A stretch of DNA of 64,000 nt, from the NCBI GenBank assembly GCA_013426015.1, contig CP058998.1:496001-560000 (forward strand), written 5' to 3'. Below are positions 7,655 through 62,690 of this stretch, piece after piece (positions within the stretch are counted from its first letter, which is position 1; the number at the start of each line of letters is the position of its first letter). The stretch comes from Candidatus Fermentimicrarchaeum limneticum. GTDB taxonomy: Archaea; Micrarchaeota; Micrarchaeia; Burarchaeales; Fermentimicrarchaeaceae. The position numbers and the translations under genes are program-made. The notes under the pieces are model-generated. The model did not search any database and was not told where the DNA came from. It saw nothing but the letters and a program-made list of their open reading frames with translations.

Positions 7655-8257
7655 TCACCTCTCCATCCTCCTGCTCACTTCATCCCAGTTCACTATGTTC
7701 CAGAAAGCCTCGATGAACTTTGCCCTGTCGTTTTTGTAGTCAATGTAGTAGGCATGCTCAAACACGTCAAGCACCATGAGGATTTTGAATGCCGGGTATA
7801 CCTCCATGTTGTGCTTCTCTATCTGCATTATCAGCGGCCTCTGAATCTGCTCTGAGAAGCTCAGCGCTGCCCAGCCGGAACCTTCCACGCTTGCTGCAGC
7901 CTGCGAGAACTCCTTCTTGAAGCGCTCAAAGCTCCCGAACTCCTTGTTTATCGAATCAGCCAGTGCTCCGCCAAACTTTCCTCCCTTTCCCGCAGGCGCG
8001 AGGTTGCCCCAGAAAAGCGAGTGAAGCACATGCCCGCCTATGTTGAATGAGAGCTCCTTGAGGGTTGACTTCACGTCAATGTCAGCGCCCTCCTTTCTCG
8101 CCTTATCGAGCTTCTTGAATATTGCATTCGCCCCGTTGACATATGCCTGGTGGTGCTTCTGGTGGTGTATCCTCAGCTGTTCCTCGGAGATGTACGGGAC
8201 CATGTCCTTGTAATCATAGTTCAGTTTCGGTAGAGAGTACAGTTTAGGATTCTCCAT
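7655..8257 (-). CDS. sodA: Superoxide dismutase, Fe/Mn type
   Basis: A 200-residue Fe/Mn superoxide dismutase, normal length. Metal ligands are all present: H31 ([12 protein letters not shown]), H79 ([11 protein letters not shown]), D164 and H168 ([11 protein letters not shown]). SGWAALSF and the C-terminal EAFWNIVNW are also standard. It dismutates superoxide to peroxide and oxygen in the cytoplasm. A GAGGTGA ribosome binding site precedes the ATG and a TTTAAATA box lies about 35 bases upstream. The downstream flavin reductase starts at its stop codon. Metal choice (Fe, Mn or either) cannot be decided. It implies exposure to oxygen. Confidence 0.95.
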
Positions 8258-14108: not shown

Positions 14109-14837
14109 CTAAACAGCCTCGGCAATTTCCTTCCCGAGCTCCAATCCCGCTACAACCTCGGGAAGCACCACTATCTCGGCGCCTGCCCTGTGCATCTTGC
14201 TCACCACTTCTTCCGAGACTGCACGGCTTGCTATGAGCAGATTGGGGTTGAGCTCCCTTGCAGTGAGGATTATGTAAACATTTTTCGTATCGTTGCCGAG
14301 TGCAGCGATAAGCCCACCTGCCCTCTCTATCCCCGCCATCTTAAGAACCACGGAGTGGGTTGCGTCTCCCTCAACAACCGCGATGTCTCTCTCCCTAAGC
14401 AGTTTCACAACCCGAGGGTTCTTCTCAATCACCACGTAGCCCATTGTGTGGTCGTCCAGTATCTCGCAAGCCTTCTCACCCAATCTTCCGTATCCGCAGA
14501 CGATTATGTGCTCGTTCATTGAGCTTATCCTTCTCTTCATCTCCCTCTTGTGAACGTTGATCCTAGAAAGAATGTTCACAAACTTTGCAGTTACGAAGGT
14601 TACGAGTATGAGGTATGCCAGCCCGTTTATGAAGGTGAATGCCTGCACTGTCCACAGCCTGTAGAAGCCCGGCACGTCAAGCACGAAGCCCGGCACGCTG
14701 AAAACAGTCGCAACAGTCCAGTAAAGTGCAATTGAGGGGTCGATATTGCTTATGAAAATCAGCGAGAGCGTTGAGAGTATGAAGATGCATGTTATGATGA
14801 CGGCAATAATATGGTCAAGTCTCCATCTGAAAGCCAT
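14109..14837 (-). CDS. Two-helix ion-channel-like protein with RCK (TrkA-N) domain, altered filter
   Basis: A 242-residue protein laid out as a two-helix K+ channel: helix near 9-30, pore region ~40-60, helix near 65-90, then a cytoplasmic RCK/TrkA-N domain from residue ~107 (EHIIVCGYGRLGEKACEIL, the NAD-binding GxGxxG). The pore segment reads YWTVATVFSVPGF where K+ channels have T-x-T-T-V-G-Y-G, so the selectivity filter is not canonical. It may pass another ion, be a sensor, or be a non-conducting partner. It starts two bases after the stop of the stand-alone RCK gene, and the two share an almost identical 121-base segment. Confidence 0.7.
   Translation of the reverse strand: MAFRWRLDHIIAVIITCIFILSTLSLIFISNIDPSIALYWTVATVFSVPGFVLDVPGFYRLWTVQAFTFINGLAYLILVTFVTAKFVNILSRINVHKREMKRRISSMNEHIIVCGYGRLGEKACEILDDHTMGYVVIEKNPRVVKLLRERDIAVVEGDATHSVVLKMAGIERAGGLIAALGNDTKNVYIILTARELNPNLLIASRAVSEEVVSKMHRAGAEIVVLPEVVAGLELGKEIAEAV
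14152..14272 (-). repeat. 121-base near-identical segment, copy 1 (in channel-RCK gene)
   Basis: Identical at 120 of 121 positions to 14907-15027 by my reading (C versus T near 14237/14992). It codes for ILTARELNPNLLIASRAV and on to LPEVV in both proteins, while flanking sequence is clearly diverged. Confidence 0.9.
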
Positions 14838-14839
14838 CG

Positions 14840-15292
14840 CTACACCCTCAGGCTCCTTATCTTCAGCTTCCTCTTCACCATTTCCCTTCCGAGTTCCATC
14901 CCGCCGACAACCTCGGGAAGCACCACTATCTCGGCGCCTGCCCTGTGCATCTTGCTCACCACTTCTTCCGAGACTGCACGGCTTGCTATGAGTAGATTGG
15001 GGTTGAGCTCCCTTGCAGTGAGGATTACGAAAATATTATTGGTGTCGTTGCCAAAGGTTGTGACAAGAGCCTTTGCCTTTTCTATGAGGGCCATCTTAAG
15101 GACTCGGGAGTGGGTTGCGTCTCCTTCAACTACTTTAATCTTCATGCTTCTGAGCAGGTTTGCTATCGCAGGGTTCTCCTCTATCACTATGTAACTCTTT
15201 TTGGACTGCTCGAGAACCTCGCAAATTTTCTCCCCGATTTTTCCATAACCGCAGACGACAACATGCTCTTCAAGCGTCTCTGGCTTCTTCAT
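14840..15292 (-). CDS. Stand-alone RCK/TrkA-N domain protein
   Basis: A 150-residue soluble RCK domain. HVVVCGYGKIGEKICEVL holds the dinucleotide-binding glycine motif, followed by VIEENPAI and VVEGDATHSRVL, the usual second and third strands. RCK proteins gate K+ channels or Trk/Ktr uptake systems in response to NAD(H), ADP or Ca2+. Start ATG 15292 follows GGGTG; a longer reading from 15358 adds 22 residues with no similarity and overlaps the tnpB element. It is the first gene of the operon with the channel-like protein. The C-terminal third is nearly identical to that of its neighbour at the DNA level. Confidence 0.78.
   Translation of the reverse strand: MKKPETLEEHVVVCGYGKIGEKICEVLEQSKKSYIVIEENPAIANLLRSMKIKVVEGDATHSRVLKMALIEKAKALVTTFGNDTNNIFVILTARELNPNLLIASRAVSEEVVSKMHRAGAEIVVLPEVVGGMELGREMVKRKLKIRSLRV
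14907..15027 (-). repeat. 121-base near-identical segment, copy 2 (in stand-alone RCK gene)
   Basis: Partner of 14152-14272, in the same reading frame and in direct orientation 755 bases away. The sharp edges suggest gene conversion between the two paralogues. Confidence 0.9.
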
Positions 15293-43453: not shown

Positions 43454-45223
43454 TCAGCAGAACGCGCTCGGCTTGCAGTCTCCGCCGCAGCAGACCCAGC
43501 CGTTGAGGCAGCACCTCCACCGCCCGCCGCAGTATACAGAGTAATGCCCTGGCTCGCACGACGGAGTCGGAGTGTAGCAAGAGCAGTCTGGTGCTGGTCT
43601 TTGCTGCTGGCCTGCCGGGCATGTGTTGGTGCATGTCACAGGTTCGGTCTTCTCCTCCACGAGTATGGTAACATCCTTGCAATCCTCCCATCCAATCATA
43701 TCTATTACGCAGACTTCAAGCGCGTAGGTGCCTGCTGTTGAAGGTGTACCCCTGAGTACTCCGTCTTTCCATAGCATAAGGCCAAGCGGGTATTCGCCAT
43801 TTTCGGAATAATAACCTGCATAGTAGTAAGGCGGCAAGCCTCCGGTGACTCTGGAAACCACCGACTGTTCGCACTTTTCATCCGTGTAACATACCACCGC
43901 TTCAGTCTCGAGCTGAGGAGGCTTCTCCCTGATGTTGATCCGCAGCTCTATCTCGCATTTTTTTTGCGGATTTGAGGAGTCGGACACTCTAACGGTGAAG
44001 GGAGGGGAGATGCTTTCGACTGTCCCGGGGGACAGAGTTCCTGTCCCGGAGAGATTTCCATCCGCCCTGAGAATGAATCCTGTCGGGAGGGTCGAGCCCT
44101 TCTTGATCTCCCAGGAGTAAGGCAGAGTGCCGCCAGCAGCAGTCATGGAGAACCATCCGAACTCGCCGTCCGTCCACATGGGGAGCGTGGTTGTGCTTAT
44201 GTAGAAATTCGGGTCTGCGCATACCTGCTTCAGCGCGATTGGGAACTGCTCAAGGTATGTCACGTGATATGGGCTTGACATGTATCTGGTTATGCCCCCC
44301 TGGAGGTCGCCCAGGCCTGCTGAGGGGCTGAGCGCAGATGAGTTTCCGGAAGCGTCCCTGAGGTTTATGTTTTTGCCATCCTCTGCTCCGTCCAATGTGC
44401 CGTCAGACCAGTCCCGCGCCAGCCCCTGCGCAAAATCGATTGACCGCACTTTCTTGTCGTGCGCAGTTTGCACAAGGCCGGCAAGGAGCAGGCCGTAGGT
44501 TCTCTGCCTGTAGGTTGAAACAGAGACGGAATCGTGGCTGTAGGCGGTGGCAGGCAAAGTCCCGACAATGCTCCAGACGTTGTACTGCTGGCCGATTACT
44601 GTGTTTGCGAATTGCACAGCATCTTCCGCAGGAATGCCCTTCGTCATGGATTTCATTGCAAGGGCGGCAGCCATGCTGGTGAAAGGCGTGATAACCAATG
44701 CATCTGTACCCGCAGGCGCAACTGCCTGCAGCGTATCGGTTTCAAGCAGCCCAACGGAATTGTTCTCTCCCCCTTTTCCGGCTCCCACAACCTCGTAGTA
44801 CGAGCCGCCGGAGGATTCAACGAGAAGAGGCGTTGATGAGCGTGAAAGGTTTAGCTCCAACTCCCCATTTTCATCGGAATAAGCCGGCCCTGCAAGAAGC
44901 TCACCTTTTGTTCCATTGTTGTTCAGTGCGTAGACTCTCACGGCAGCTCCTGAAACAGGCCCTTCCATGTAGACTCCGACAAACAAGGTCTTGGGTTGGG
45001 GAGGCAGGGTCATGAAAAAATAAGCGATAAGTCCAACCACGAGCAGAAGGATAAGCAGGAGAAACAGGTAAGCAAGAATTCCGAGGAGTCCGGTTTTTTT
45101 CGGAGTTTTTGAAACAGCCGGTGCAGGCGTTTCCTTAGCCGCAGAAATGGCAACTCCGCACTCTGGGCAGTGCTTCGGGTTTGGTTGGGGAAGCTCATGC
45201 CCGCAGTCTGGACAGTATTTCAC
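43454..45223 (-). CDS. Membrane protein with cytoplasmic zinc ribbon and extracellular Ig-like domains
   Basis: 589 residues, no known name. Residues 1-25 form a zinc ribbon (C4, C7, C19, C22: KYCPDCGHELP, KHCPECGVA). A helix follows at ~45-70, then an extracellular part: a carboxypeptidase-regulatory-like domain (~85-160), a helical middle (~170-310) and two putative Ig-like repeats that start GGTLPYSWEIKKGSTLPTG and GGLPPYYYAGYYSENG. The last ~60 residues are cysteine-rich (about 16 Cys), ending in PSAFC. Cytoplasmic zinc ribbons attached to large ectodomains are common in archaeal membrane proteins of unknown use. Confidence 0.7.
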   Translation of the reverse strand: MKYCPDCGHELPQPNPKHCPECGVAISAAKETPAPAVSKTPKKTGLLGILAYLFLLLILLLVVGLIAYFFMTLPPQPKTLFVGVYMEGPVSGAAVRVYALNNNGTKGELLAGPAYSDENGELELNLSRSSTPLLVESSGGSYYEVVGAGKGGENNSVGLLETDTLQAVAPAGTDALVITPFTSMAAALAMKSMTKGIPAEDAVQFANTVIGQQYNVWSIVGTLPATAYSHDSVSVSTYRQRTYGLLLAGLVQTAHDKKVRSIDFAQGLARDWSDGTLDGAEDGKNINLRDASGNSSALSPSAGLGDLQGGITRYMSSPYHVTYLEQFPIALKQVCADPNFYISTTTLPMWTDGEFGWFSMTAAGGTLPYSWEIKKGSTLPTGFILRADGNLSGTGTLSPGTVESISPPFTVRVSDSSNPQKKCEIELRINIREKPPQLETEAVVCYTDEKCEQSVVSRVTGGLPPYYYAGYYSENGEYPLGLMLWKDGVLRGTPSTAGTYALEVCVIDMIGWEDCKDVTILVEEKTEPVTCTNTCPAGQQQRPAPDCSCYTPTPSCEPGHYSVYCGGRWRCCLNGWVCCGGDCKPSAFC

Positions 45224-48704: not shown

Positions 48705-48810
48705 CTGATTCGCCCTAGCCCCTTCACCTTTTGGCTTCTTCGTCTATTTAATCCTTGCTAGAATCCCGTAAGCGCTCAAGAATGCTTGAATTGTCCAATT
48801 CCCCGTTGTG

Positions 48811-48860
48811 AAATCAGCTTTGCCTCGGAATCTATACTCCAAGCGGTTGATGTGTCCGGC
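48811..48860 (+). repeat. Intergenic repeat, copy 1 (partial)
   Basis: Shares AAATCAGC, GCCTCGGA, ACTCCAAG and GGTTG-TG blocks in order with the copy at 53783 (a two-base gap), but its right half (the CAGTCAC and ACACTTTCCT blocks) is not recognisable. Lies between the divergent coiled-coil and trpB2 genes. Confidence 0.55.
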
Positions 48861-48929
48861 AGGGTTTGCAGACTCCATGATGTCATGGTTTTTAATATTT
48901 AAGTGAGAAACTGAATGTGGGGTGAACAG

Positions 48930-50219
48930 ATGAAAATAAGTCCGATAGATCTGACTATTGATGAGTTGCCTGATAAGTGGTACAACATAACTGCTGATTT
49001 CCCTTCTCCCATGTCCCCTCCGAAAGATCCAGTCGAAGGAGAATCTAGGTTGAAACTTTTGCCAGAATTCTTTACAGCGGAAGCTTTGAAGCAGGAGATG
49101 TCGCAGGAAAGATGGATAAGAATCCCGGAGGAGGTTAAAGAGCTGTACATTCACGTTGGAAGGCCCAGGCCGCTTTACAGGGCGTATCGTTTGGAGAAGT
49201 ACCTGAAAACTCCGGCGAAAATCTATTACAAGAGGGAGGACCTCTCGCCAACCGGAAGCCACAAGGTGAATACCGCACTAGCCCAGCTGTACTATGTTGC
49301 AAAAGAGGGGTATGAGAGAGTCACAACTGAGACCGGCGCAGGGCAGTGGGGTTCGGCATTAGCGCATGGAGCTGCGCTGATGGGTTTGAAATGCACGGTC
49401 TATATGGTGAGATTCGCTTACAACCTGAAGCCGGGCAGAAGAACCATCATGAAATACTACGGGGCGGAATGCCTGCCCTCTCCAAGCAATAGGACTACGT
49501 TTGGTAAAAAACTCCTGAAAGAGAACCCGAACCACAACGGCTCGCTGGGAATCGCCGTCTCCGAGGGGATTGAGGATGCGCTGAAGCATGATGATACAGT
49601 TTACTGCCTAGGGAGCGTTCTCAACCATGTCCTCCTGCATCAAACGGTAATCGGTCAGGAGGTCATCAAACAGTTTGAAAAAATCGACGAGACTCCGGAT
49701 GTGATGTTCGCCTGCCTGGGCGGGGGCTCCAATTTCGGCGGGTTCACGATTCCGATGATGGGGCTGAGATTAAAGAAAAAGGTCGATACGAGGTTCGTTG
49801 CATGCCAGTCTGAGGTGAGCGCGAACCTTGTTAATGGAAAATATGAGTATGATTTTGGCGATGCTGCGGAGCAGACCCCGTTGCTGAAGATGTTCACCCT
49901 CGGGCACAAGAAGGATATGCACCCGATCTATGCCGAGGGACTGCGTTATCATGCCGCTGCCCCGGTCTTAAGCTACCTGAGAAATTTGGGGATGATCGAG
50001 GCAAAGGTATACCCCAGGGACGAGAAACTGATCTTTGAAGCAGCAAAAATCTTCATGCGGACCGAAGGTTTCATCCCGGCGCCTGAATCAGCCTATGCGA
50101 TAAGGGCAGCCATAGACGAGGCGTTAGAGGCGAGAAGGAAAAACGAGAAAAAGGTAATCGCGATGAACATAAGCGGGCACGGGTTTGTTGATCTGGAAGC
50201 CTACGACAAATTCATCTGA
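48930..50219 (+). CDS. trpB2: Tryptophan synthase beta-like protein (TrpB2)
   Basis: 429 residues. PLP-binding K112 in GSHKVNTALAQ, phosphate-binding glycine loop GGGSNFGGF, and the longer TrpB2 N-terminus (DELPDKWYNI, PLYRAYRLEKYL) distinguish it from ordinary TrpB. TrpB2 makes tryptophan from indole and serine, or uses free phosphoserine. No trpA or other trp genes are nearby, so it may salvage indole. ATG 48930 follows GGGGTGA. The repeat copy at 50221 starts just after its stop. Confidence 0.92.
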   Translation: MKISPIDLTIDELPDKWYNITADFPSPMSPPKDPVEGESRLKLLPEFFTAEALKQEMSQERWIRIPEEVKELYIHVGRPRPLYRAYRLEKYLKTPAKIYYKREDLSPTGSHKVNTALAQLYYVAKEGYERVTTETGAGQWGSALAHGAALMGLKCTVYMVRFAYNLKPGRRTIMKYYGAECLPSPSNRTTFGKKLLKENPNHNGSLGIAVSEGIEDALKHDDTVYCLGSVLNHVLLHQTVIGQEVIKQFEKIDETPDVMFACLGGGSNFGGFTIPMMGLRLKKKVDTRFVACQSEVSANLVNGKYEYDFGDAAEQTPLLKMFTLGHKKDMHPIYAEGLRYHAAAPVLSYLRNLGMIEAKVYPRDEKLIFEAAKIFMRTEGFIPAPESAYAIRAAIDEALEARRKNEKKVIAMNISGHGFVDLEAYDKFI

Positions 50220-50220
50220 G

Positions 50221-50293
50221 AAAATCAAGACTGTCTCGGACGCTGTTGACCTTATCGCGTTGATAACCTCAGTCACAAGGTATACACTTTCCT
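50221..50293 (+). repeat. Intergenic repeat, copy 2 (left flank of the FecR-like operon)
   Basis: Ungapped 73-base match to 53783-53855, 53 identical positions by my count. Blocks held in common: AAAATCA, CTCGGACGCTGT, GAC, GTTG, TCAGTCAC and ACACTTTCCT. It begins immediately after the trpB2 stop. Confidence 0.75.
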
Positions 50294-50398
50294 GCAGTAA
50301 TATGTGAGTTCGATATATAAAAGAGTATCAGAATTATCCGATCACTAACCGATTCAGCAAAGCCTATTATTTACCTAACTTACTATATTGGCCAATAA

Positions 50399-52114
50399 TT
50401 AAACCGCATCAGTTTCAATAGGAGGATTATAAGGTGGAAAGTTTGTGTTTAAATCAGGTGATAATTTCGTGAGTTCTTTATCGCACCAGTCAATCATTAT
50501 TCTTATGTGTTCCCCAATGTTTTCTGTGTTTTGATCTAATATGTCCATTTGCATTTGAATCATGTTTACCTTAAATTCATTCCCAGCCTTCCTCGCATCC
50601 TCCTCTTCCTCCAAAAGCTCTTTCTTCCACTCACTTATCTGCTTCTTAGAAATTTCTTGTTGTTTTTGTGGGTCCAGTTCATCAAGTTGCATCTGGGTTG
50701 CATCGGCCATCATTGTGTCCCCCGCTTGTTTGTAATATTTCAGCTTCTCTGCAAGCTCTGCCTTTCTTTTCTCCTTATCTCTCTTTGATGCCTCGCTTTC
50801 AGCCGGTTTTGGTTGTGATTTTTTTTCATCTGTGTCTCTGAGCTTTTGTTCAAATTCTTTTTTATTTGCCAGCAGGGAGACATATTTCTCGATTGCCATT
50901 CCATATCTCACTACTGCCCTGATTCTTGGGTCTGGGTTTCCTGACTTATCGGAATAGGTCGTATTGCCCAGCATAGTAATCTTCCCTGAAAAAATGAAAT
51001 CCTTGCTTCCAGCTTTTGGGAACAGGATACTTGCGGTTTTCCCAGTGCGTTTATTTTTCACAGAATTCATTGTTCCAAAAACAACAATAGAACTATCAGC
51101 GCCCAATTCGGTATATGCTGAAATCTCGTCGCATACCTTGGATTTCACCTTTTGGGCGTTGTATGCCGCAACTATTGATGCTGCATTTGGAACATTCGCC
51201 AGTTTTGCGTATTCTTTGTCCATAATGCTTTCATAAGTTTTTGAAGAATGCAAAAATTCAATCGCAGGGTATCCGGAGGAGAATTCCAATAAGTTATTTG
51301 CATTTGTATTTTTGTTCAGTAAGCTGACCCTGAATATTCCTTTGACCAATAGAAAACCCGAAATGTTGTAGTTCATTACAGTGCACTCTGATTTATTCTT
51401 TATGACCTCCGGCACTTGGGAGGGGTCCATGAACCCGGGAGCTGGATGCGTTACCTTTTCTGACACCTTCATAACGGCTTCTGAATTTGGGAATATACCT
51501 ATCTCCCGATGGTAATCATCGTTTGAGATAAAATCATTCACGCACGCATAGGAGTCTCCATCAGTTACAATCCTGTCCCCGTCTTGTAGCATAAAGCCGA
51601 CATTCTTCGGGTCCAAAACTTGACTGCCCATGCCAATGCTCTTTGTGGTGGGGGGATTAGAATCTTCTGGGAGAGGGATTCTTTGCATCCCTCGTTTAAC
51701 ATAAGCCTTGCCATATGCCCTAACATTTGCGGTGAAGATTGAAGTGCTCTTTATTATAGAAAAGAATGGATAATTGTGTTTTTTCAGTAACTCTATTTTG
51801 CTTTTGAATGCGTCCTCATATCTATACTCAACAGAGACATCGTTGATGTGCTTTGTGATTACTACGGGGGGATTTATTTTGAACTCTTCCGATATCCTAT
51901 CGCATTCCTCGATCTCCTCCAGGTCCTTTGCTGCTCGTTTGCCTGTTGCCTTCAATTCCTCTACTTCACTTGATTTCGAATATGATTCTATCTCCTCTGA
52001 CGCTTTTTGAGATGCTTTTTCCTGCATCTTTGCAATTCTTTTAAGAAACTCCTCATCGCTCTCTTTGCCGGCAGTATCAACATCTGCGCTTTTTTTAGGT
52101 TTTTTATCAACCAT
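50399..52114 (-). CDS. Soluble protein with FecR-like segment and C-terminal coiled coil
   Basis: 571 residues, no family recognised. Residues 1-75 are charged coiled coil; ~95-420 are globular and beta-rich, including FMLQDGDRIVTDGDSYACV and IFPNSEAVMKVSE (175-220), the order DGDxIxTGxxS... then ...NSExxxxV typical of FecR domains; ~420-540 are Lys/Glu coiled coil; the C-terminus is Pro/Asn-rich. No signal peptide or helix, so cytoplasmic. Third gene of the operon, nine bases after the second, with GTGGT ahead of the ATG. Function unknown. Confidence 0.65.
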   Translation of the reverse strand: MVDKKPKKSADVDTAGKESDEEFLKRIAKMQEKASQKASEEIESYSKSSEVEELKATGKRAAKDLEEIEECDRISEEFKINPPVVITKHINDVSVEYRYEDAFKSKIELLKKHNYPFFSIIKSTSIFTANVRAYGKAYVKRGMQRIPLPEDSNPPTTKSIGMGSQVLDPKNVGFMLQDGDRIVTDGDSYACVNDFISNDDYHREIGIFPNSEAVMKVSEKVTHPAPGFMDPSQVPEVIKNKSECTVMNYNISGFLLVKGIFRVSLLNKNTNANNLLEFSSGYPAIEFLHSSKTYESIMDKEYAKLANVPNAASIVAAYNAQKVKSKVCDEISAYTELGADSSIVVFGTMNSVKNKRTGKTASILFPKAGSKDFIFSGKITMLGNTTYSDKSGNPDPRIRAVVRYGMAIEKYVSLLANKKEFEQKLRDTDEKKSQPKPAESEASKRDKEKRKAELAEKLKYYKQAGDTMMADATQMQLDELDPQKQQEISKKQISEWKKELLEEEEDARKAGNEFKVNMIQMQMDILDQNTENIGEHIRIMIDWCDKELTKLSPDLNTNFPPYNPPIETDAV

Positions 52115-52123
52115 CCTAAACCA

Positions 52124-53347
52124 CTACGCAACCTTTACTGCTCCGGACTCTTGTGTTAAATGTTTGTACTTTCTTGGAGATTTAAAGAAGGACTCGATGT
52201 CTATCGTTTTACCTTCTGCTGTAACATTTTGAACGGGCTGCTCTAGCTGCTTTTTCGTTTGTTCAAATGCCTTTGTTTGAGCCTTTGTAAGCCTGTCTAT
52301 GCCCTCGCTTCCCAAACCTTCTATGAATCCCTTCCCTCCCGCCATTGCCCGCTTCATTTCCTTCATGGTGCCTCTCTTTTCCATTAGATTAAACATTTCT
52401 GGGATTTCCTTCATCTTTTCCATCATTTCAGGAGTAAGTTCATGTCCCCCCATTTTCATGAGCCGGGCTAAGTCATCAGGTGACATCTGTTTAAGTGTTT
52501 CCATCCCTGCGAGCGCCTGCTCCATATTTTTTGGCATGTTCTTATACTGCTCCGCCATAGTTTTTTCATCAATTGGGTTTAACGGCATCATCTTGCGTAT
52601 GTTGTTCTGGAAGAAAAGGTTCAACTGCACAGGATTAAGAAATATTTCATCCATCTGCGTTAACCCTCTTCTGTATATCCCATCCCGAGTTACTATTATC
52701 TCCTCGAACGTATCGGATTTTGCAGTGAACGATTTTTTAGTCAGCCTGTTTGTGTATTCCGTTCCGCCGGCGCCGATGGAGGTTGAAGCGATAGGGGCGC
52801 TGTAAACAGCATTATCGCATATATCAAAAAACCCCCCTCCATCAAAAATGAACTTTATTATGGCGACAGGAGTTACAAGAACATCTTCGGTATGGGAGTA
52901 TGAAACCTGGAAAAAACCTTTTTTCAGCTCTATGTTTTTTATCAGCTCGCCGTGATGCCTTTCCTTTGTTTTTGCATCTGTTTTGTCCCACCGCTCAATA
53001 CCGCTGACCTGCAACTCACTGCCCGGAACCATCTGAACAGATTTCGATGCCCTAAATTTATAGTCGTCGACAGGCTTTTCTTTTCCAGCATTGTAACTAT
53101 TATAAAGGCGTATAGACGTTTCCTTGCCGCAAAGTATCGTATCGCCATCCATGAGCTTCGGGTAATCCTCTTTGTATTTGTCAAGCTTCGTATGGTCTTT
53201 TGTTTTCTGGAATTCATCCAGCAGCTTGTTTTCGATTTCAACAGAGGGAATGCCAATTTTCTTCCCGTCTTTTCTTGTTATGGATCCGTTCGAGCCTACC
53301 GCAAGTAAGTCAATACGTCCGGTTTCAATATCGAAGACTAGTCCCAT
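52124..53347 (-). CDS. Soluble protein with FecR-like segment and Met-rich tail
   Basis: About 407 residues from ATG 53347. MGLVFDIETGRIDLL opens it. LMDGDTILCGKETSIRLYN and MVPGSELQVSG (66-116) give a FecR-like segment parallel to that in the next gene. A beta-rich region runs to ~255; then a Met-rich helical tail (MSPDDLARLMKMGGHELTPE and on) with amphipathic helices. No signal or membrane helix. The longer start at 53389 overlaps the preceding gene and adds basic residues; the ATG at 53347 is 20 bases after that gene. Unknown function. Confidence 0.62.
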   Translation of the reverse strand: MGLVFDIETGRIDLLAVGSNGSITRKDGKKIGIPSVEIENKLLDEFQKTKDHTKLDKYKEDYPKLMDGDTILCGKETSIRLYNSYNAGKEKPVDDYKFRASKSVQMVPGSELQVSGIERWDKTDAKTKERHHGELIKNIELKKGFFQVSYSHTEDVLVTPVAIIKFIFDGGGFFDICDNAVYSAPIASTSIGAGGTEYTNRLTKKSFTAKSDTFEEIIVTRDGIYRRGLTQMDEIFLNPVQLNLFFQNNIRKMMPLNPIDEKTMAEQYKNMPKNMEQALAGMETLKQMSPDDLARLMKMGGHELTPEMMEKMKEIPEMFNLMEKRGTMKEMKRAMAGGKGFIEGLGSEGIDRLTKAQTKAFEQTKKQLEQPVQNVTAEGKTIDIESFFKSPRKYKHLTQESGAVKVA

Positions 53348-53367
53348 AAGGCGCCTCGTGAATTTTA

Positions 53368-53676
53368 TTACTTTAACGCTTCGCCGCACTGCTTGCAGAA
53401 TTTCATACCAAGCGGATACTCAACATTGCATTTCTCACATTTGACAATAAGTCTGAATCCGCATGCAGGACAGAATTTTGCATCAGGTTCTAGTTTAGCC
53501 TTACATTTTGGGCAATTTTCCAATGGCTTTGCCGGCCCCGGTTCTTTTTTCACGGCGTCCATGCCTTTCTTTATCCCAGATGTAACAGTGCTGGTTGCAA
53601 CATCTCCTGCTCTATACGTTAAATTATCCTTTGTCCTTTTTATCACATTATCGGCAATCCCATCAAGTAAACCCAT
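53368..53676 (-). CDS. Double zinc-ribbon protein
   Basis: 102 residues from ATG 53676. N-terminal amphipathic ~50 residues (MGLLDGIADNVIKRT) are followed by two zinc ribbons: C-x2-C pairs in ENCPKCKAKL and KFCPACGFR, then VKCEKCNVEY and KFCKQCGEAL, a DZR arrangement. It opens the three-gene operon. GTGGTG precedes this ATG; the earlier ATG at 53709 is too close to the TATA-like TTTTAAAATA (~53730). In other systems DZR proteins act as adaptors for larger assemblies. Confidence 0.68.
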   Translation of the reverse strand: MGLLDGIADNVIKRTKDNLTYRAGDVATSTVTSGIKKGMDAVKKEPGPAKPLENCPKCKAKLEPDAKFCPACGFRLIVKCEKCNVEYPLGMKFCKQCGEALK

Positions 53677-53782
53677 AGCACCACTCGATACCTTGAAGGT
53701 ATCAAACATATATTGTATGCCTATTTTAAAATTCTTTGCATCGGATTAATCCGAAGTGATAGTAATTCATTTTTACGTCGTA

Positions 53783-53855
53783 AAATCAGCAAGGCCTCGG
53801 ACGCTGTAGACTCCAAGTGGTTGGTGAGGTCAGTCACCATGTACACACTTTCCTA
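53783..53855 (+). repeat. Intergenic repeat, copy 3 (right flank of the FecR-like operon)
   Basis: Best-preserved copy, 73 bases, same orientation as 50221-50293. It contains a GGTGA/TCACC hairpin (about 53824-53839) that is not kept in the other copy. The rest of the 53677-54029 gap holds the operon promoter (~53730) and a promoter for the PP-loop gene; I see no RNA gene. Confidence 0.75.
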
Positions 53856-54029
53856 ATTTATTATGGCATGCTGGTATAAAAATCTACTCTAAATATCCCT
53901 TGGATTCACGACTCTCAGCTGTATGTTTTATATTGTCTAGAAATCAGAAGTTAAAAAGTAACAGATACCATTTCGTAAGGGAAAATAAAAGCAAATAAAT
54001 TTTTCTAAAAGTGTAATGGTGAACCCAAT

Positions 54030-55043
54030 ATGGCAAAGATTCAGCGAACACCTTCGGAAAAAATCAGGGCAGTCGCTCTGCTTTCAGGTGGATTGGATTC
54101 AACACTGGCAGTGAAACTCATACTCGACCAAGGCATAGACGTCACTGCGTTGAAGTTCACATCGCCATTCTGCATGTGTGACCAGAAAGGCAGGTGCTAC
54201 GCACTTGAAGTTTCTAAAAAATTCAAAATCCCGCTGAAGGTTATGAAGAAAGGCAATGAATACCTAGGGATTGTAAGAAAGCCCAAATTCGGCTACGGCT
54301 CAGGGATGAATCCCTGCATAGACTGCAGGATATACACATTAAAGAAAGCGAAGGCGTATTCCAAGAAAATAGGGGCCAGATTTATCCTAACAGGCGAAGT
54401 GCTAAACCAGAGGCCCATGAGCCAGCACATGAGGGCCCTGAAGCTAATAGAGAAGGAAGCAGGCCTGGAGGGCAAGCTGCTCAGGCCGCTCTCTGCAAAG
54501 CTGCTACCAAGAACAGAAGCAGAGAGAAGGGGGTGGGTTGATAGGGAAAAACTGCTGGCAATTGAGGGAAGGACAAGAAAACCCCAGATTGCCCTAGCAG
54601 AGAAGTTCTGTGTAACCGATTACCCATCATCTGGTGGCGGCTGCCTTCTGACCTCCAAGGAATTTGCAAACAAAGTCAGGGATTTGTTCAAGCACAAGAA
54701 AAAGGTTACCATGGAAGACATGCAGCTCCTGAAAGTAGGCAGGCATTTCAGGTTCGGCGAAAACAAGATAATTGTAGGGAGGAATGAGGTGGAGAACAGG
54801 ATACTGCTCAAATCTAAGAACAAATCAGACTATGTATTCGATGTCCCCAATTTCGGGAGCCCTATAACAATCCTGCAGAACAAAAAAATAGAGAAGGCGA
54901 TAAAGCTTGCTGCCCGATTAACGGCAGCCTACTCGGATGCCAAGAAGGATAACGTTATGGTGAAATACGGTCCCCTAAAACCCTCAAGAAAGATAGTTGT
55001 AAAGCCGATAAGCAGGGAGCAAATAGACAAGCTCAGGGTCTGA
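54030..55043 (+). CDS. PP-loop ATPase, MnmA/ThiI-like tRNA thiolation protein
   Basis: 337 residues. PP-loop SGGLDSTLAVKLI binds ATP. FCMCDQKGRC, MNPCIDCRIYTL, ILTGEVLNQRPMSQHM and SSGGGCLLTSKEF with paired cysteines match a group of MnmA-related proteins found in archaea and some bacteria, which adenylate a tRNA base and add sulfur; the exact base modified is not known to me. It is not queuosine QueC (different spacing). GGTGAACCC precedes the ATG. It follows the repeat copy at 53783. Confidence 0.75.
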   Translation: MAKIQRTPSEKIRAVALLSGGLDSTLAVKLILDQGIDVTALKFTSPFCMCDQKGRCYALEVSKKFKIPLKVMKKGNEYLGIVRKPKFGYGSGMNPCIDCRIYTLKKAKAYSKKIGARFILTGEVLNQRPMSQHMRALKLIEKEAGLEGKLLRPLSAKLLPRTEAERRGWVDREKLLAIEGRTRKPQIALAEKFCVTDYPSSGGGCLLTSKEFANKVRDLFKHKKKVTMEDMQLLKVGRHFRFGENKIIVGRNEVENRILLKSKNKSDYVFDVPNFGSPITILQNKKIEKAIKLAARLTAAYSDAKKDNVMVKYGPLKPSRKIVVKPISREQIDKLRV

Positions 55044-56391: not shown

Positions 56392-56409
56392 AGACTCGGT
56401 CATAGGATT

Positions 56410-56430
56410 GCTTTGCCTCGTACGCTGTTC
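56410..56430 (+). repeat. Intergenic repeat family, fragment
   Basis: GCTTTGCCTCG then ACGCTGTT, matching the first half of the copies at 48811 and 53783 (TTTGCCTCGGA, CGGACGCTGT). No right half is visible. Confidence 0.35.
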
Positions 56431-56452
56431 AGCAGAAGCAGTCAACAAACTC

Positions 56453-56479
56453 AATTAATTACTTTCTTAGTAATTAATT
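56453..56479. terminator. Perfect 11-base inverted repeat between convergent genes
   Basis: AATTAATTACT (56453-56463) and AGTAATTAATT (56469-56479) around TTCTT. It lies in the 214-base gap between the ends of two convergent genes (56391 and 56606), so a bidirectional terminator is the simplest reading. It might also be a protein site. Confidence 0.45.
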
Positions 56480-56605
56480 TTACGGATTCCAAAGAATATT
56501 TAGTATTTGGGTATAAGATATTTTGGAGAATCTTGATTACTTACAACTGTTTCTCAAAGCCTCTCCGGCTTCCACTCCTGAAAAACAACTAAAAAAGAAA
56601 AGGGA

Positions 56606-57780: not shown

Positions 57781-57842
57781 CTTTAGAATAGCAGATATCT
57801 GATGTGGTGGTGAATTCACATCTTGCAAAAGTAGGTGGTCGG

Positions 57843-60800
57843 ATGAATAAATCAATTTTTGCAATTGTTCTTCTTTTGGTTTTAATAATGGTGATTGCGT
57901 ATTTTTTGGGGAAAGCAGTCGAAAAAGGTGAGGATCGTGGAAAAGACGTTAGTCGACTCTTAGGCATTTCATGGGAATCCATTAATGGCCCACCGGGAGG
58001 AAGGGTAACCGCACTTATACAGAATTCTTACAAGCATAATGAGCTGTATGCGCTAACAGCACGCGGCGTATACAAATCTGAGGACAAGGGTGAAAGCTGG
58101 AGGCTGATGAAAGGCCTGGAAGATAAATGGGTTAATTCCATAGCAGCCTACAAAGATAGGTTATTTGTTTGCGCTGATGGTGTTAGTTATTACGACGGCA
58201 CTGAAACTCTTGTTAAAGTTTATGACGGCCGGTGTGAAAGACTTGCAATAAGCAGTGATAAGATTTTCGTCGCGACTGCAGGTAGAAAAAAGGAAGAGTT
58301 GCAGGTATTATATTCTGATTTAAAGTCGGGAAGTTTTGATTGGCATGATATGTCTCCTTCCGCTTCAGAATTGAGGGATATAACGCTGCCCTCAGCCGAT
58401 ACTGGCTTTGATTGCATCATAAATGTTCCGCATATTGTCACAGTTGGGAATAGAATATTGGCCAATATTATGGTGGAAATGGGAGGTGGTAGCGGAGAAT
58501 GCAGTAACGGCCAGTTATACAAATCTGAAGATTTGGGGAAGACCTGGTCCAAGGTTGGGCTTAATAAGTCAGACGAACTTGTGATTTCAAATATTGTGCG
58601 AGACCCAAATGACGAAGAACATGTAATAGTGACGCTTAAGCATAAATTGCATGATAGTTATTTGCCTTTATACATGTTCTTAAGAGAATCTTATGATGGT
58701 GGTCTCACCTGGTCTCCTGTAACAAATATTGCTAATTTTGAAGTAAATTTCGTAGGTGATGTTGACATAACAGAATCATCCTATTATATAACATTACCAA
58801 AGGGCGGGCAATTTCTTAAGCTGAACAAGTTGAACAAATCTGATTATGAATTAATTGATCAGCCAAGAGCAGAAGGATATGATAAGGATCTCATCTTTTA
58901 CTTGCAAGAGCTGCTATTTGATTTGGATGACCCGAAGATAGTTTATGGAAGGACTAACGATATGTGGGCATACGGCCTTGTTAAATCAGAAGATAATATG
59001 CAGACATGGAGGAAGATGGATAGGGATATTGTGGCGTCATCTCCTTCTATTGTAATTGTCCATCCAACAGATCCAAATATTATATTCACTACTGGCAATA
59101 CGGCACACGAGGCATATTTCACAGAGGATGGAGGAAAGACGTGGAAGCCTTTTTCTCGTATCGCCTTTGGGGATGAGTTAAAAATAGACCCGAATAATCC
59201 AAACCATTTGATTCTCATAGATGAGAACACCGCGCTATTTGAATCGTACAATCTTGGAAAAAACTTTAGTGGAATCAATTGGCCATCAGGAGGAAACAGC
59301 AGCTTCTCTTCTGCAAAAGTTTTCGATTTCGAAATTGCAAAAGACGACCCTAATAAGATTTATGTTTCCAATATGGGTGTTGGCATATCAAAGTCTAACC
59401 TTTCACAACCATGGGAGCCTTGGAGATACCTACTAAATTCTCCAGACTATGTATACTCAATGAAGCTAGATCCAGAAGATAGCAACATTCTTTATGCTTC
59501 GTATTCTCCGAAGATATTTGAAAACTATGCGTCTGTCTGGAGATATTCAAAATATCAGGAAAAGAATTCTGGATGGAGCGAGATATTAAGGGTGGAAAAC
59601 TCCAGAGGAATAACCTCGCTTGAATTCGATGAGTCAAATCCAGATAATATTTACGCGGGAGTTATAGGTAAAGAAGGTACCATATATTCAAGCCCTGATA
59701 GAGGAAAAACATGGAGCAAACTGGATGAAGACTTAACATTTACAACTATTTGGGGTCATTCGCAACTGCAGATAGATCCAAGAGACAAAAATGCAGTCTA
59801 TGCAGGTACTTGGGGTGGGGGCACTTATAAAACAATAAATGGTGGAAAGGATTGGAGTTTATTAGATGAAAATCACACTTTTTCTCCAACATGTTTGGCA
59901 ATCTCTGAAAAAAATCCGAATGTCATGTATGCCTGCGATAGAACTTCTCCCAAAATCCATAAATCAACAGATGCTGGAAAAAGCTGGACTGAATATTATG
60001 ATTTTGGGAAAGATTATATGTTAACATCTGCCGTTGCTATCGATCCCGATGATCCAGATACAATATACGCATCTGCATTTAAACCACCAATGGCTCACCT
60101 AGGGGGTTTAGTTAAGATCACAAACGGACAGGCTACTCCAATTGGGAAGGATTTGCCAAGATCTGTCATAGAGATTGAAATTGACCCAAAAAATAAAAAT
60201 ACAATTTACGCCGCAACACACATCCACGGTGTATACAAGAGCACTAACGGTGGGAATAACTGGGAGGAGTTGGATGATAAGAACAATGGCTTGCCTAGGA
60301 TTGGTGTCTATGATATTGATGTTGACCCTAAAAACAGTGAGATTCTATATGCAACAGCTTTGTGCGGTCCGCTGCCCGATTATATGGTGCCTCCTCAGGC
60401 AGTTCAACTGTTAACTGGATTTAAAAACTTGGATCCGAATGGTAAGTGTGGAGTTTACAAAAGCGTTGATGGAGGGAAACGCTGGAGCTTGATATTGGCA
60501 ACAGTAAGTGAAGCCAGAGGAATAGATATCGACCCTAAAAATCCAAACAATCTTTATGTTGCTGATATGATGGGTGGTGTATGGGTTAGCAATGATGCAG
60601 GAGAGAACTGGAGGCAGGAGAATAATGGCTTGGGAAGCATAAGTATGACTTCTGTTAAGATAAAAGATGATTACATTTATGCTTCAACACAAGGAAGCGG
60701 AGTTTATTCTGGAGTTATAAACAAGGATGGTTTAATAACATGGGATAGGTCAAGAAGCAACAAACCAAAAACCTATGTTTACAAAATACAGATAGAGGTT

Positions 60801-62690
60801 GACCCAACCAACTCAAAGAGAATTTATGCAAGCGCTTATCCAGGTGGCTTGCTAAGAAGCGATGATGGTGGAAAAAATTGGAATGATAAAAACTTCTTAA
60901 CTCCAAGCATTAAAGTTGATGACCCGGTGCTTCAAGGCTATTACTCCTTTGATATTGATCCAAAAAATACGAGTATTATTTGGATGGGGGTTTATGGTAA
61001 GGGAATGCTTGTTTCTTACGATGGGATGGATTTTGACATGTTTGCGGATGGCGATAACAACACAATGAGAGGGAAACGTATAACTTCTGTAAGAATAAAC
61101 CCTAACGCAGATGAGGTATATGCTGGAAGTCAAGAAGGTGTTTTTGTTACAAAAGATAATGGTAAAGATTGGGAAGCAATGAACGATGGACTAGAGACCC
61201 TTGACATAAGATCGCTGAAAATTGCGAATATAACCTATCCTCCTTTTGTGGATGATTTTGAGGATGGAAAGGCTGATGGGTGGGGATTTTGGTCCGTTGT
61301 AGAAAATGTGGGTGGTTGGTCCGTTGTGCAGGAAAATGGAAATCATGTTTTACAAGGTATTGACCACGCAGGCGTTGGTACTGGTTCAGACTCATGGTCG
61401 GATTATACCTTTGAATCCAAAGTAAAATTAATCGAAGGTGGTATTCATGTTAATTACAGGGCGGGCGAAGCAGGAAGAAGGTATGCCATAGGTATGTATG
61501 AGAATAGCATGTATCTAATGAAATCAACTGCTCCGAATGTTCATATTCGGCTGGTTGATGTTGAGCTTCCTTTGGGCGAAGACTGGAATACAGTTAAGAT
61601 AGTTGGGAAAGGAGGCAACATCAAGGTTTACGTGAACAATGTATTGAAAATAGATTACACTGATAATGAGCCTGTATTGAACGGGGGGATTAATTTTGAA
61701 TCACTTCCGGATTCCAAGGTTTATGTGGATGATGTTAATGTAACTATAGATGTTGTTGAATCTACAGTCTATGCAGGCACTGCTGGATACGGAATATACA
61801 AATTTGATCCTCTAAATAAAAAATGGCAAAACACTGGAAGGACGCTCGGCTTTGGCTGGTGGAACCCTTGGGACAGAAGGATGTACCAGTTCAGTTCCTT
61901 GCTGTTTGACCCAGATGTTCCTGGAAGAGTCTATTTAGGCCATTTTCCAAGCGGATTTTACATAAGTGAGGATAATGGGCATGCATGGAGGGATTCAAGC
62001 GTGGGGCTAGGAAATGATGGAATGTTCTCCCTTTACATGCATCCTTACAACCACAGCATACTCTTTGGAGGAACATACAACGGAATTGCCAAATCAGAGG
62101 ATGGAGGTAAGACGTGGAAGCTTAAAGGAAAGAAAGGAATAGAAAACTTGAGGGGGGAAGGGGCATGGAAAGTGTGGGAAAAACAGACCAAAGGTATCAT
62201 GCCTCCAGAGCAATGGCCATATGTAGTGGCGATTGATAGCAATAACCCGAACATAATTTATACGACCACCAAAAACGGCAAGAACAAGGGTTACTGCCAA
62301 AGAAACATGAACATGCTGGGTGGGTATGATAGAAATCACTTCTGTGGCATAGTGATGAAATCAACCGATGGTGGAGAAATATGGTCTGAAATCATGAAAG
62401 GCCTCAACTGGGGGAGCGAATTTTACACATTGATAATTTACCCGAAGAACCACAGCGTACTGTTCCTGAGCAGCAATAAAGGAGTTTACATAAGCACGAA
62501 TGCTGGGGAGAGCTGGAATCCGATAAACGAAGGCCTTCCAACACCTACCTCACTATATCCTAATCAGGTTAGAGATAATGTCGCAGATAATCTAGCGCTC
62601 ACACCAGACAACAATTATTTGATACTCGGTTTAACGAATTATGGTGCGTGGAGAGCTGACCTATCGAAGCTTAATCTCAGTTCAAGTTGA
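57843..62690 (+). CDS. Giant membrane-anchored Asp-box (BNR/sortilin-like) propeller protein
   Basis: 1615 residues, the longest gene here. An N-terminal helix (FAIVLLLVLIMVIAYFLG, uncleaved) anchors it; the rest is outside. At least 18 Asp-box motifs S-x-D-x-G-x-x-W (KSEDKGESW, SPDRGKTW, STDAGKSW, STNGGNNW, SVDGGKRW, SNDAGENW, SEDGGKTW, STNAGESW and others) with ID(P)-(K/N)-(N)-x-x-x-(I/L)YA spacers make two or three beta-propellers, as in GH74 xyloglucanases and sortilins. Near residues 1140-1300 a jelly-roll (LamG/DUF1080-like) domain interrupts the propellers. Catalytic residues of GH74 are not evident, so binding rather than hydrolysis is likely. AT-richer than earlier genes. Confidence 0.8.
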   Translation: MNKSIFAIVLLLVLIMVIAYFLGKAVEKGEDRGKDVSRLLGISWESINGPPGGRVTALIQNSYKHNELYALTARGVYKSEDKGESWRLMKGLEDKWVNSIAAYKDRLFVCADGVSYYDGTETLVKVYDGRCERLAISSDKIFVATAGRKKEELQVLYSDLKSGSFDWHDMSPSASELRDITLPSADTGFDCIINVPHIVTVGNRILANIMVEMGGGSGECSNGQLYKSEDLGKTWSKVGLNKSDELVISNIVRDPNDEEHVIVTLKHKLHDSYLPLYMFLRESYDGGLTWSPVTNIANFEVNFVGDVDITESSYYITLPKGGQFLKLNKLNKSDYELIDQPRAEGYDKDLIFYLQELLFDLDDPKIVYGRTNDMWAYGLVKSEDNMQTWRKMDRDIVASSPSIVIVHPTDPNIIFTTGNTAHEAYFTEDGGKTWKPFSRIAFGDELKIDPNNPNHLILIDENTALFESYNLGKNFSGINWPSGGNSSFSSAKVFDFEIAKDDPNKIYVSNMGVGISKSNLSQPWEPWRYLLNSPDYVYSMKLDPEDSNILYASYSPKIFENYASVWRYSKYQEKNSGWSEILRVENSRGITSLEFDESNPDNIYAGVIGKEGTIYSSPDRGKTWSKLDEDLTFTTIWGHSQLQIDPRDKNAVYAGTWGGGTYKTINGGKDWSLLDENHTFSPTCLAISEKNPNVMYACDRTSPKIHKSTDAGKSWTEYYDFGKDYMLTSAVAIDPDDPDTIYASAFKPPMAHLGGLVKITNGQATPIGKDLPRSVIEIEIDPKNKNTIYAATHIHGVYKSTNGGNNWEELDDKNNGLPRIGVYDIDVDPKNSEILYATALCGPLPDYMVPPQAVQLLTGFKNLDPNGKCGVYKSVDGGKRWSLILATVSEARGIDIDPKNPNNLYVADMMGGVWVSNDAGENWRQENNGLGSISMTSVKIKDDYIYASTQGSGVYSGVINKDGLITWDRSRSNKPKTYVYKIQIEVDPTNSKRIYASAYPGGLLRSDDGGKNWNDKNFLTPSIKVDDPVLQGYYSFDIDPKNTSIIWMGVYGKGMLVSYDGMDFDMFADGDNNTMRGKRITSVRINPNADEVYAGSQEGVFVTKDNGKDWEAMNDGLETLDIRSLKIANITYPPFVDDFEDGKADGWGFWSVVENVGGWSVVQENGNHVLQGIDHAGVGTGSDSWSDYTFESKVKLIEGGIHVNYRAGEAGRRYAIGMYENSMYLMKSTAPNVHIRLVDVELPLGEDWNTVKIVGKGGNIKVYVNNVLKIDYTDNEPVLNGGINFESLPDSKVYVDDVNVTIDVVESTVYAGTAGYGIYKFDPLNKKWQNTGRTLGFGWWNPWDRRMYQFSSLLFDPDVPGRVYLGHFPSGFYISEDNGHAWRDSSVGLGNDGMFSLYMHPYNHSILFGGTYNGIAKSEDGGKTWKLKGKKGIENLRGEGAWKVWEKQTKGIMPPEQWPYVVAIDSNNPNIIYTTTKNGKNKGYCQRNMNMLGGYDRNHFCGIVMKSTDGGEIWSEIMKGLNWGSEFYTLIIYPKNHSVLFLSSNKGVYISTNAGESWNPINEGLPTPTSLYPNQVRDNVADNLALTPDNNYLILGLTNYGAWRADLSKLNLSSS

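Follow-up and report, generated by a model that had tools for sequence, protein, structure and literature searches.

Little is understood of the ways in which DPANN archaea, whose genomes are small, acquire genes. The described systems closest to the locus analyzed here are integron arrays, FecR-domain proteins (PF04773), which are normally periplasmic or membrane-anchored, and double zinc-ribbon (DZR) proteins (PF12773). Integrons have been reported in archaea, in a text where Micrarchaeota go unmentioned (Ghaly et al., 2022, PMC9668308). In the literature searched we found no paper linking Micrarchaeota with FecR.

We analyzed a window (the whole stretch of DNA under study, 64,000 nucleotides) from the genome of a Candidatus Micrarchaeota genus (G000, 1.2 Mb in two contigs). 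Our favored explanation, which we consider probable with some reserve, is that a laterally acquired, co-inherited operon occupies, as a single unit, a place in a gene-cassette array specific to the genus. For the array we count as established the conserved operon, its patchy distribution, the domain common to proteins A and B, the multi-copy sites, the reassortment of their arms and one core-edged cassette. The features concerned, in window coordinates, are as follows.

53368..53676, minus strand: double zinc-ribbon protein, 102 aa; PF12773 DZR and PF13240 above cut-off; MG(L/I/F)L start in the G099 and G125 orthologues
52124..53347, minus strand: protein B, 407 aa; N-terminal domain common with A (residues ~12-153), helical C-terminal part
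50399..52114, minus strand: protein A, 571 aa; residues ~129-268 hold the domain common with B, and each end has charged segments predicted to be helical
50206..50300, plus strand: cassette site 1; core at 50233-50246, differing from the consensus by one base; abuts the PALP/TrpB-type gene at its 3' end
53764..53857, plus strand: cassette site 2; core at 53794-53807, identical to the consensus; scored at 45.3 bits by model R1, E 6.7e-13 (a circular value, see below)
48796..48852, plus strand: degenerate site of the same family, across the PALP/TrpB-type gene from site 1; 20.4 bits, E 4.9e-5
56409..56493, plus strand: type U3 site (hairpin arm); core 56415-56428, one mismatch; arm 87% identical to L037 7042-7128
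48915..50219, plus strand: PALP-family (tryptophan synthase beta-like) gene; PF00291, E 9e-39; fills the neighboring site-to-site interval
54030..55043, plus strand: ThiI/NFACT-R-type gene flanking site 2; PF18297 and PF02568; the neighbor of this gene in congener G001 is another one

A preliminary description of this DNA had proposed a tight three-gene operon on the minus strand, with a zinc-ribbon gene among the three, and both points were borne out. As read, the three open reading frames run 53709-53368, 53389-52124 and 52114-50399, all on the minus strand. Alignment with orthologues moved the zinc-ribbon start to 53676 and that of B to 53347 and left A unchanged at 52114, giving intergenic gaps of 20 and 9 bases; the zinc-ribbon frame is open further upstream, to 53709. 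The first gene product matched PF12773 in Pfam (E = 4e-11).

A first search, among 60 close relatives, found no homologues of A and B and gave the impression of an orphan operon, which was overturned once 301 genomes from across the phylum were searched. There the three-gene set was present in the host and in two other genomes only (3/301), with weaker matches elsewhere (E > 7e-4) left out of the homologue count, and was missing from the sampled congeners. The two distant genomes, G099 and G125, belong to other families of the same class as the host. In both, B and A lie side by side in the same order (B orthologues 44% and 42% identical, A 38% and 33%, zinc ribbon 44-51%), with the zinc-ribbon gene placed before B in G099, as in the window, and after A in G125. 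Judged by this conservation, the zinc ribbon/B/A operon is a real, conserved but rare unit. Being conserved yet rare, and absent from the sampled congeners, it points to lateral transfer, in agreement with a G+C content of 41% against 48% for the window. The loci of the orthologues are different and non-conserved, and the family model described below detected no site at them (L124 and L125). A fixed housekeeping locus without the repeats had been named as a finding that would speak against the earlier proposal; the homologues do lack the repeats, but their loci are not fixed.

Proteins A and B had been described as twins. Pairwise BLAST gave no match between them, though profile-profile comparison (hhalign) of three-member alignments did, with E = 1.2e-6 for the whole proteins and E = 5.7e-8 once the domains were excised; the domain score was 54, whereas none of 120 controls with shuffled columns exceeded 30.6. 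The common region carries the pattern noted earlier, (D)GD..S...P-x-SE, followed by a G-x-F strand, and by these profile scores A and B have a homologous domain in common. The proposed likeness to FecR fared less evenly, with a weak signal for B and none of significance for A. Against a comparison set of five Micrarchaeota sequences that a FecR search had yielded (three exceed the Pfam cut-off), B scored 27.7 over 39 columns only (maximum 24.7 in 120 shuffles, P ~0.002), whilst A showed no significance against the same profile set. PF04773 itself gave no match for A, B or their orthologues at E values up to 5-10, none reaching the gathering threshold. Kinship with FecR would therefore be a lead and not a result, and is plausible for B only.

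None of the three proteins has a signal peptide, as had been noted for A and B, or a transmembrane segment (maximum 19-residue mean hydropathy 1.68). Operon conservation together with the paralogy of A and B suggests that the three proteins may form a joint cytoplasmic complex. More tentatively, A and B might be paired scaffold subunits, each with a related beta-type (FecR-like) domain and helical extensions, and the zinc ribbon might be a small adaptor, all three acting together in the cytoplasm. The scaffold role seems doubtful to us: no family match or structure supports it. AlphaFold2 models of A and B built from single sequences had low confidence (mean pLDDT 44 and 38). The intracellular assembly or the regulatory or defence device proposed earlier found neither support nor contradiction.

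The operon is flanked by two repeats in the same direction (50221-50293 and 53782-53854). The preliminary count of 53/73 identical positions without gaps stands, and the next best match of either repeat within the window is 38/73; in a whole-genome search the pair is found at E = 1e-5. They are, however, not a private pair but two members of a larger family, with other full-length copies in the host at C1:560087 (8e-11) and 452841 (3e-4). A family model scored the two operon-flanking copies at 6.7e-13 and 3.1e-6 in ~95 kb, values that are circular because the alignment behind the model included those copies; independent evidence for the repeats thus comes from the direct match and from further copies in other genomes.

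Sites of this family measure ~75-130 bp and contain a constant 14-bp core, ACAGCGTCCGAGGC, so that a site read on the operon strand consists of an upstream arm, ACAGCGTCCGAGGC and a downstream arm. All site and cassette comparisons are based on the congeneric set G000-G003, which are draft metagenome assemblies of four species. With at most one mismatch, the core was matched 30 times in this set (7, 11, 6, and 6) and its reversed-pattern control 0 times in each genome; eight further genomes gave 5 matches against 7 for the reversed control. Host sites are confined to two clusters (447-453 kb and 545-564 kb) of the 1.18-Mb contig and point in one direction except the last. As the distant copies of the operon are without repeats, these do not form part of it and belong to the genus. 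The core-to-core unit that holds the operon is 3,561 bp long.

Upstream arms fall into several types, and downstream arms into one large class plus unrelated sequences. Their combination is nearly free (Mantel r 0.14, p 0.07, 27 sites): across the core, upstream arm U3 is followed by five downstream sequences unrelated to one another, and a single downstream arm class is joined to several upstream types. Such free combination across the core is the pattern that exchange at the core would leave. U3 arms (window 56437-56493; L037 7067-7128) carry an almost perfect hairpin, AATTAATTACT...AGTAATTAATT, next to the core, which sets them apart from the other arm types. Two further identities for the repeats were considered and rejected. 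As C/D or H/ACA guide RNA genes they show box-like motifs in some copies that are not kept, with no Rfam match; as a coding sequence for a peptide (TASEA...LILRR, minus strand) they have frames broken in many copies. RNAalifold on four copies found few pairs and little covariation.

On contig C50 of G001, successive sites at 7659, 8340, 9133, and 10833 lie at distances of 0.7-1.7 kb, and each gap holds one gene. A zinc-ribbon/transglutaminase gene (PF01841) has sites on its flanks in three genomes. Between G003 and G000 this cassette is ~91% identical over 1.3 kb, most of its length; the left edge of the identity falls exactly on the first core base and the right edge in the core region, where likeness between arm types blurs it, and the sequences outside are unrelated. 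This is one well-resolved cassette, found by looking and without prior prediction, and several of the comparisons were unplanned. Two genes adjacent in G003 are separated in G001 by a 1.4-kb insert with two sites, and in G000 the block of those genes is rearranged by an inversion that ends close to sites. Other site neighbors include a methyltransferase gene and an AbiE toxin-antitoxin pair. Beside the operon, the intervals reach 8 kb and hold genes in both orientations, so the array looks looser than an integron. No empty site for the zinc ribbon/B/A operon was found in the congeners, all of which lack the operon. The earlier proposal of a mobile or swappable module is supported in an altered form: the sites are of a recombination type and form a genus-wide array, but they are not the ends of an element defined by the operon, which occurs elsewhere without them.

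Several other features were seen near the sites. Relative to G003, the inversion ends at window 48785 and at G000:C1 ~566338, both near site-like sequence. The AbiEi/AbiEii-type pair (L029:7956-9175, on G001:C50) stands directly beside a cassette site of the congener. A family with an N-terminal zinc ribbon and membrane segments (window 43454-45223; L036 11349-12791; L029 6253-7674; L034 8235-9566) recurs near cassette sites, at least one member, the L029 copy, having a transglutaminase domain (PF01841). Window 57804-62690, within an interval between two sites, encodes a 1,628-aa protein with many DGG-x-(N/S/T)W (Asp-box-like) repeats. Elsewhere in the window, 14125-14518 and 14880-15272 are a direct duplication of ~395 bp at 78% identity.

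Among tyrosine recombinase (PF00589) matches in G000-G003, none was tied to the sites. Those in G000, G002, and G003 lie away from the arrays, and G001 has 11 cores yet no PF00589 match in a 91% complete genome. On contig C1 of the host, at ~341-415 kb, three tyrosine-recombinase genes have identical scores and a spacing of exactly 25,989 bases, each with a second weak recombinase match ~21 kb later; this 26-kb segment in three tandem copies is either an integrated element or an assembly artefact.

We propose that a putative site-specific recombinase would exchange DNA at the 14-bp core, such that units bounded by two cores could be gained, lost or shuffled. Insertion of a two-core unit next to an existing site would build an array, which the zinc ribbon/B/A operon would have entered as one core-to-core unit. 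The exchange pattern comes from comparison, whereas a circular intermediate and present-day activity would be further assumptions of the model. Homologous recombination between the short repeats could account for part of the pattern. The broader proposal, that some Micrarchaeota have an integron-independent means of cassette capture, which would use a dedicated recombinase at the core and serve to collect accessory operons such as this undescribed one, is tentative and on balance rather unlikely.

The multi-copy nature and small size of the sites would also suit dispersed non-autonomous insertion elements (MITE- or IS605-like), homologous recombination between which would have rearranged the genes passively. 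The U3-arm hairpin is strong (z ~ -2.5 to -5 in three of five copies), and the inversion relative to the congeners ends close to sites, as this explanation would have it. A fixed-end element would not, however, have arms that vary independently on both sides of the core; terminal inverted repeats and target duplications were not seen by eye, and the sites are limited to a few clusters. We regard insertion elements as an unlikely explanation. It is very unlikely, in our view, that the repeats are 3'-end or promoter/RNA elements of many genes, unrelated to mobility. Cores do often follow directly on stop codons, and TTTAAG-like candidates for a TATA element occur in the downstream arm; but the repeats have neither an Rfam match nor a folding signal, are restricted to one genus and to clusters, and coincide at the core with cassette edges.

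A canonical integron array lacking an integrase of its own (CALIN) would account for sites of like orientation with one or a few accessory genes between them, and archaeal integrons are on record (PMC9668308). That reading is already largely refuted and extremely improbable. The integron integrase IntI (TIGR02249) exceeded the cut-off in 0/8 genomes, and the sub-cut-off matches come from ordinary tyrosine recombinases, whose alignments leave out positions ~167-240 of the model. The U3 hairpin apart, 26 sites showed attC-like folding no better than dinucleotide shuffles on either strand (mean z -0.3 (R) and 0.0 (F)), and RYYYAAC/GTTRRRY boxes were not seen by eye at the sites. An origin of the operon in a phage or plasmid, or a role as an anti-phage defence unit, would fit its patchy distribution, its low G+C, the AbiE pair beside a site of a congener and the want of an assigned family: A and B match nothing in Pfam, NCBIfam, PADLOC or the PDB, and nothing convincing in PHROGs. 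The PADLOC and PHROG results nevertheless count against this origin, as does the lack of relatives of A and B in viral contigs, phages and plasmids, and we think it quite unlikely; in PADLOC the zinc ribbon gave a weak match only, to the zinc-ribbon stretch of DruE.

If the cassette-array explanation is true, an array laid out like an integron, yet lacking both IntI and attC folding, would amount to a second way of solving the problem that integrons solve; it would also offer a genomic marker for finding others. The operon adds three conserved uncharacterized protein families with a clear orthologue set for structure work.

Compared with known systems, the operon zinc ribbon resembles DZR proteins in its two CxxC...CxxC ribbons above the Pfam cut-off, and differs in a short orthologue-conserved N-terminal segment and in its fixed operon partners. 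Protein B and its orthologues show (D)GD-x-I..G..S, PxSE, a (K/E)G-x-F strand and TP-x-A in this order, and align in register with the FecR domains of related Micrarchaeota; A and B differ from FecR proteins in falling below Pfam thresholds (A without significance), in long helical extensions and in a cytoplasmic location without a hydrophobic segment. The array differs from those of integrons in having no IntI, no attC fold above chance and a constant core of 14 bp, and in its genes in both orientations, some large intervals and arrays in more than one place. It resembles them in small accessory-gene units that repeated sites separate and that for the most part share one direction within the array, in greater site similarity within a lineage, and in cargo of toxin-antitoxin genes and genes without functional annotation. 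As in integrons, small units stand in tandem (G001:C50), and unit edges fall at the conserved core, seen for one cassette in two genomes.
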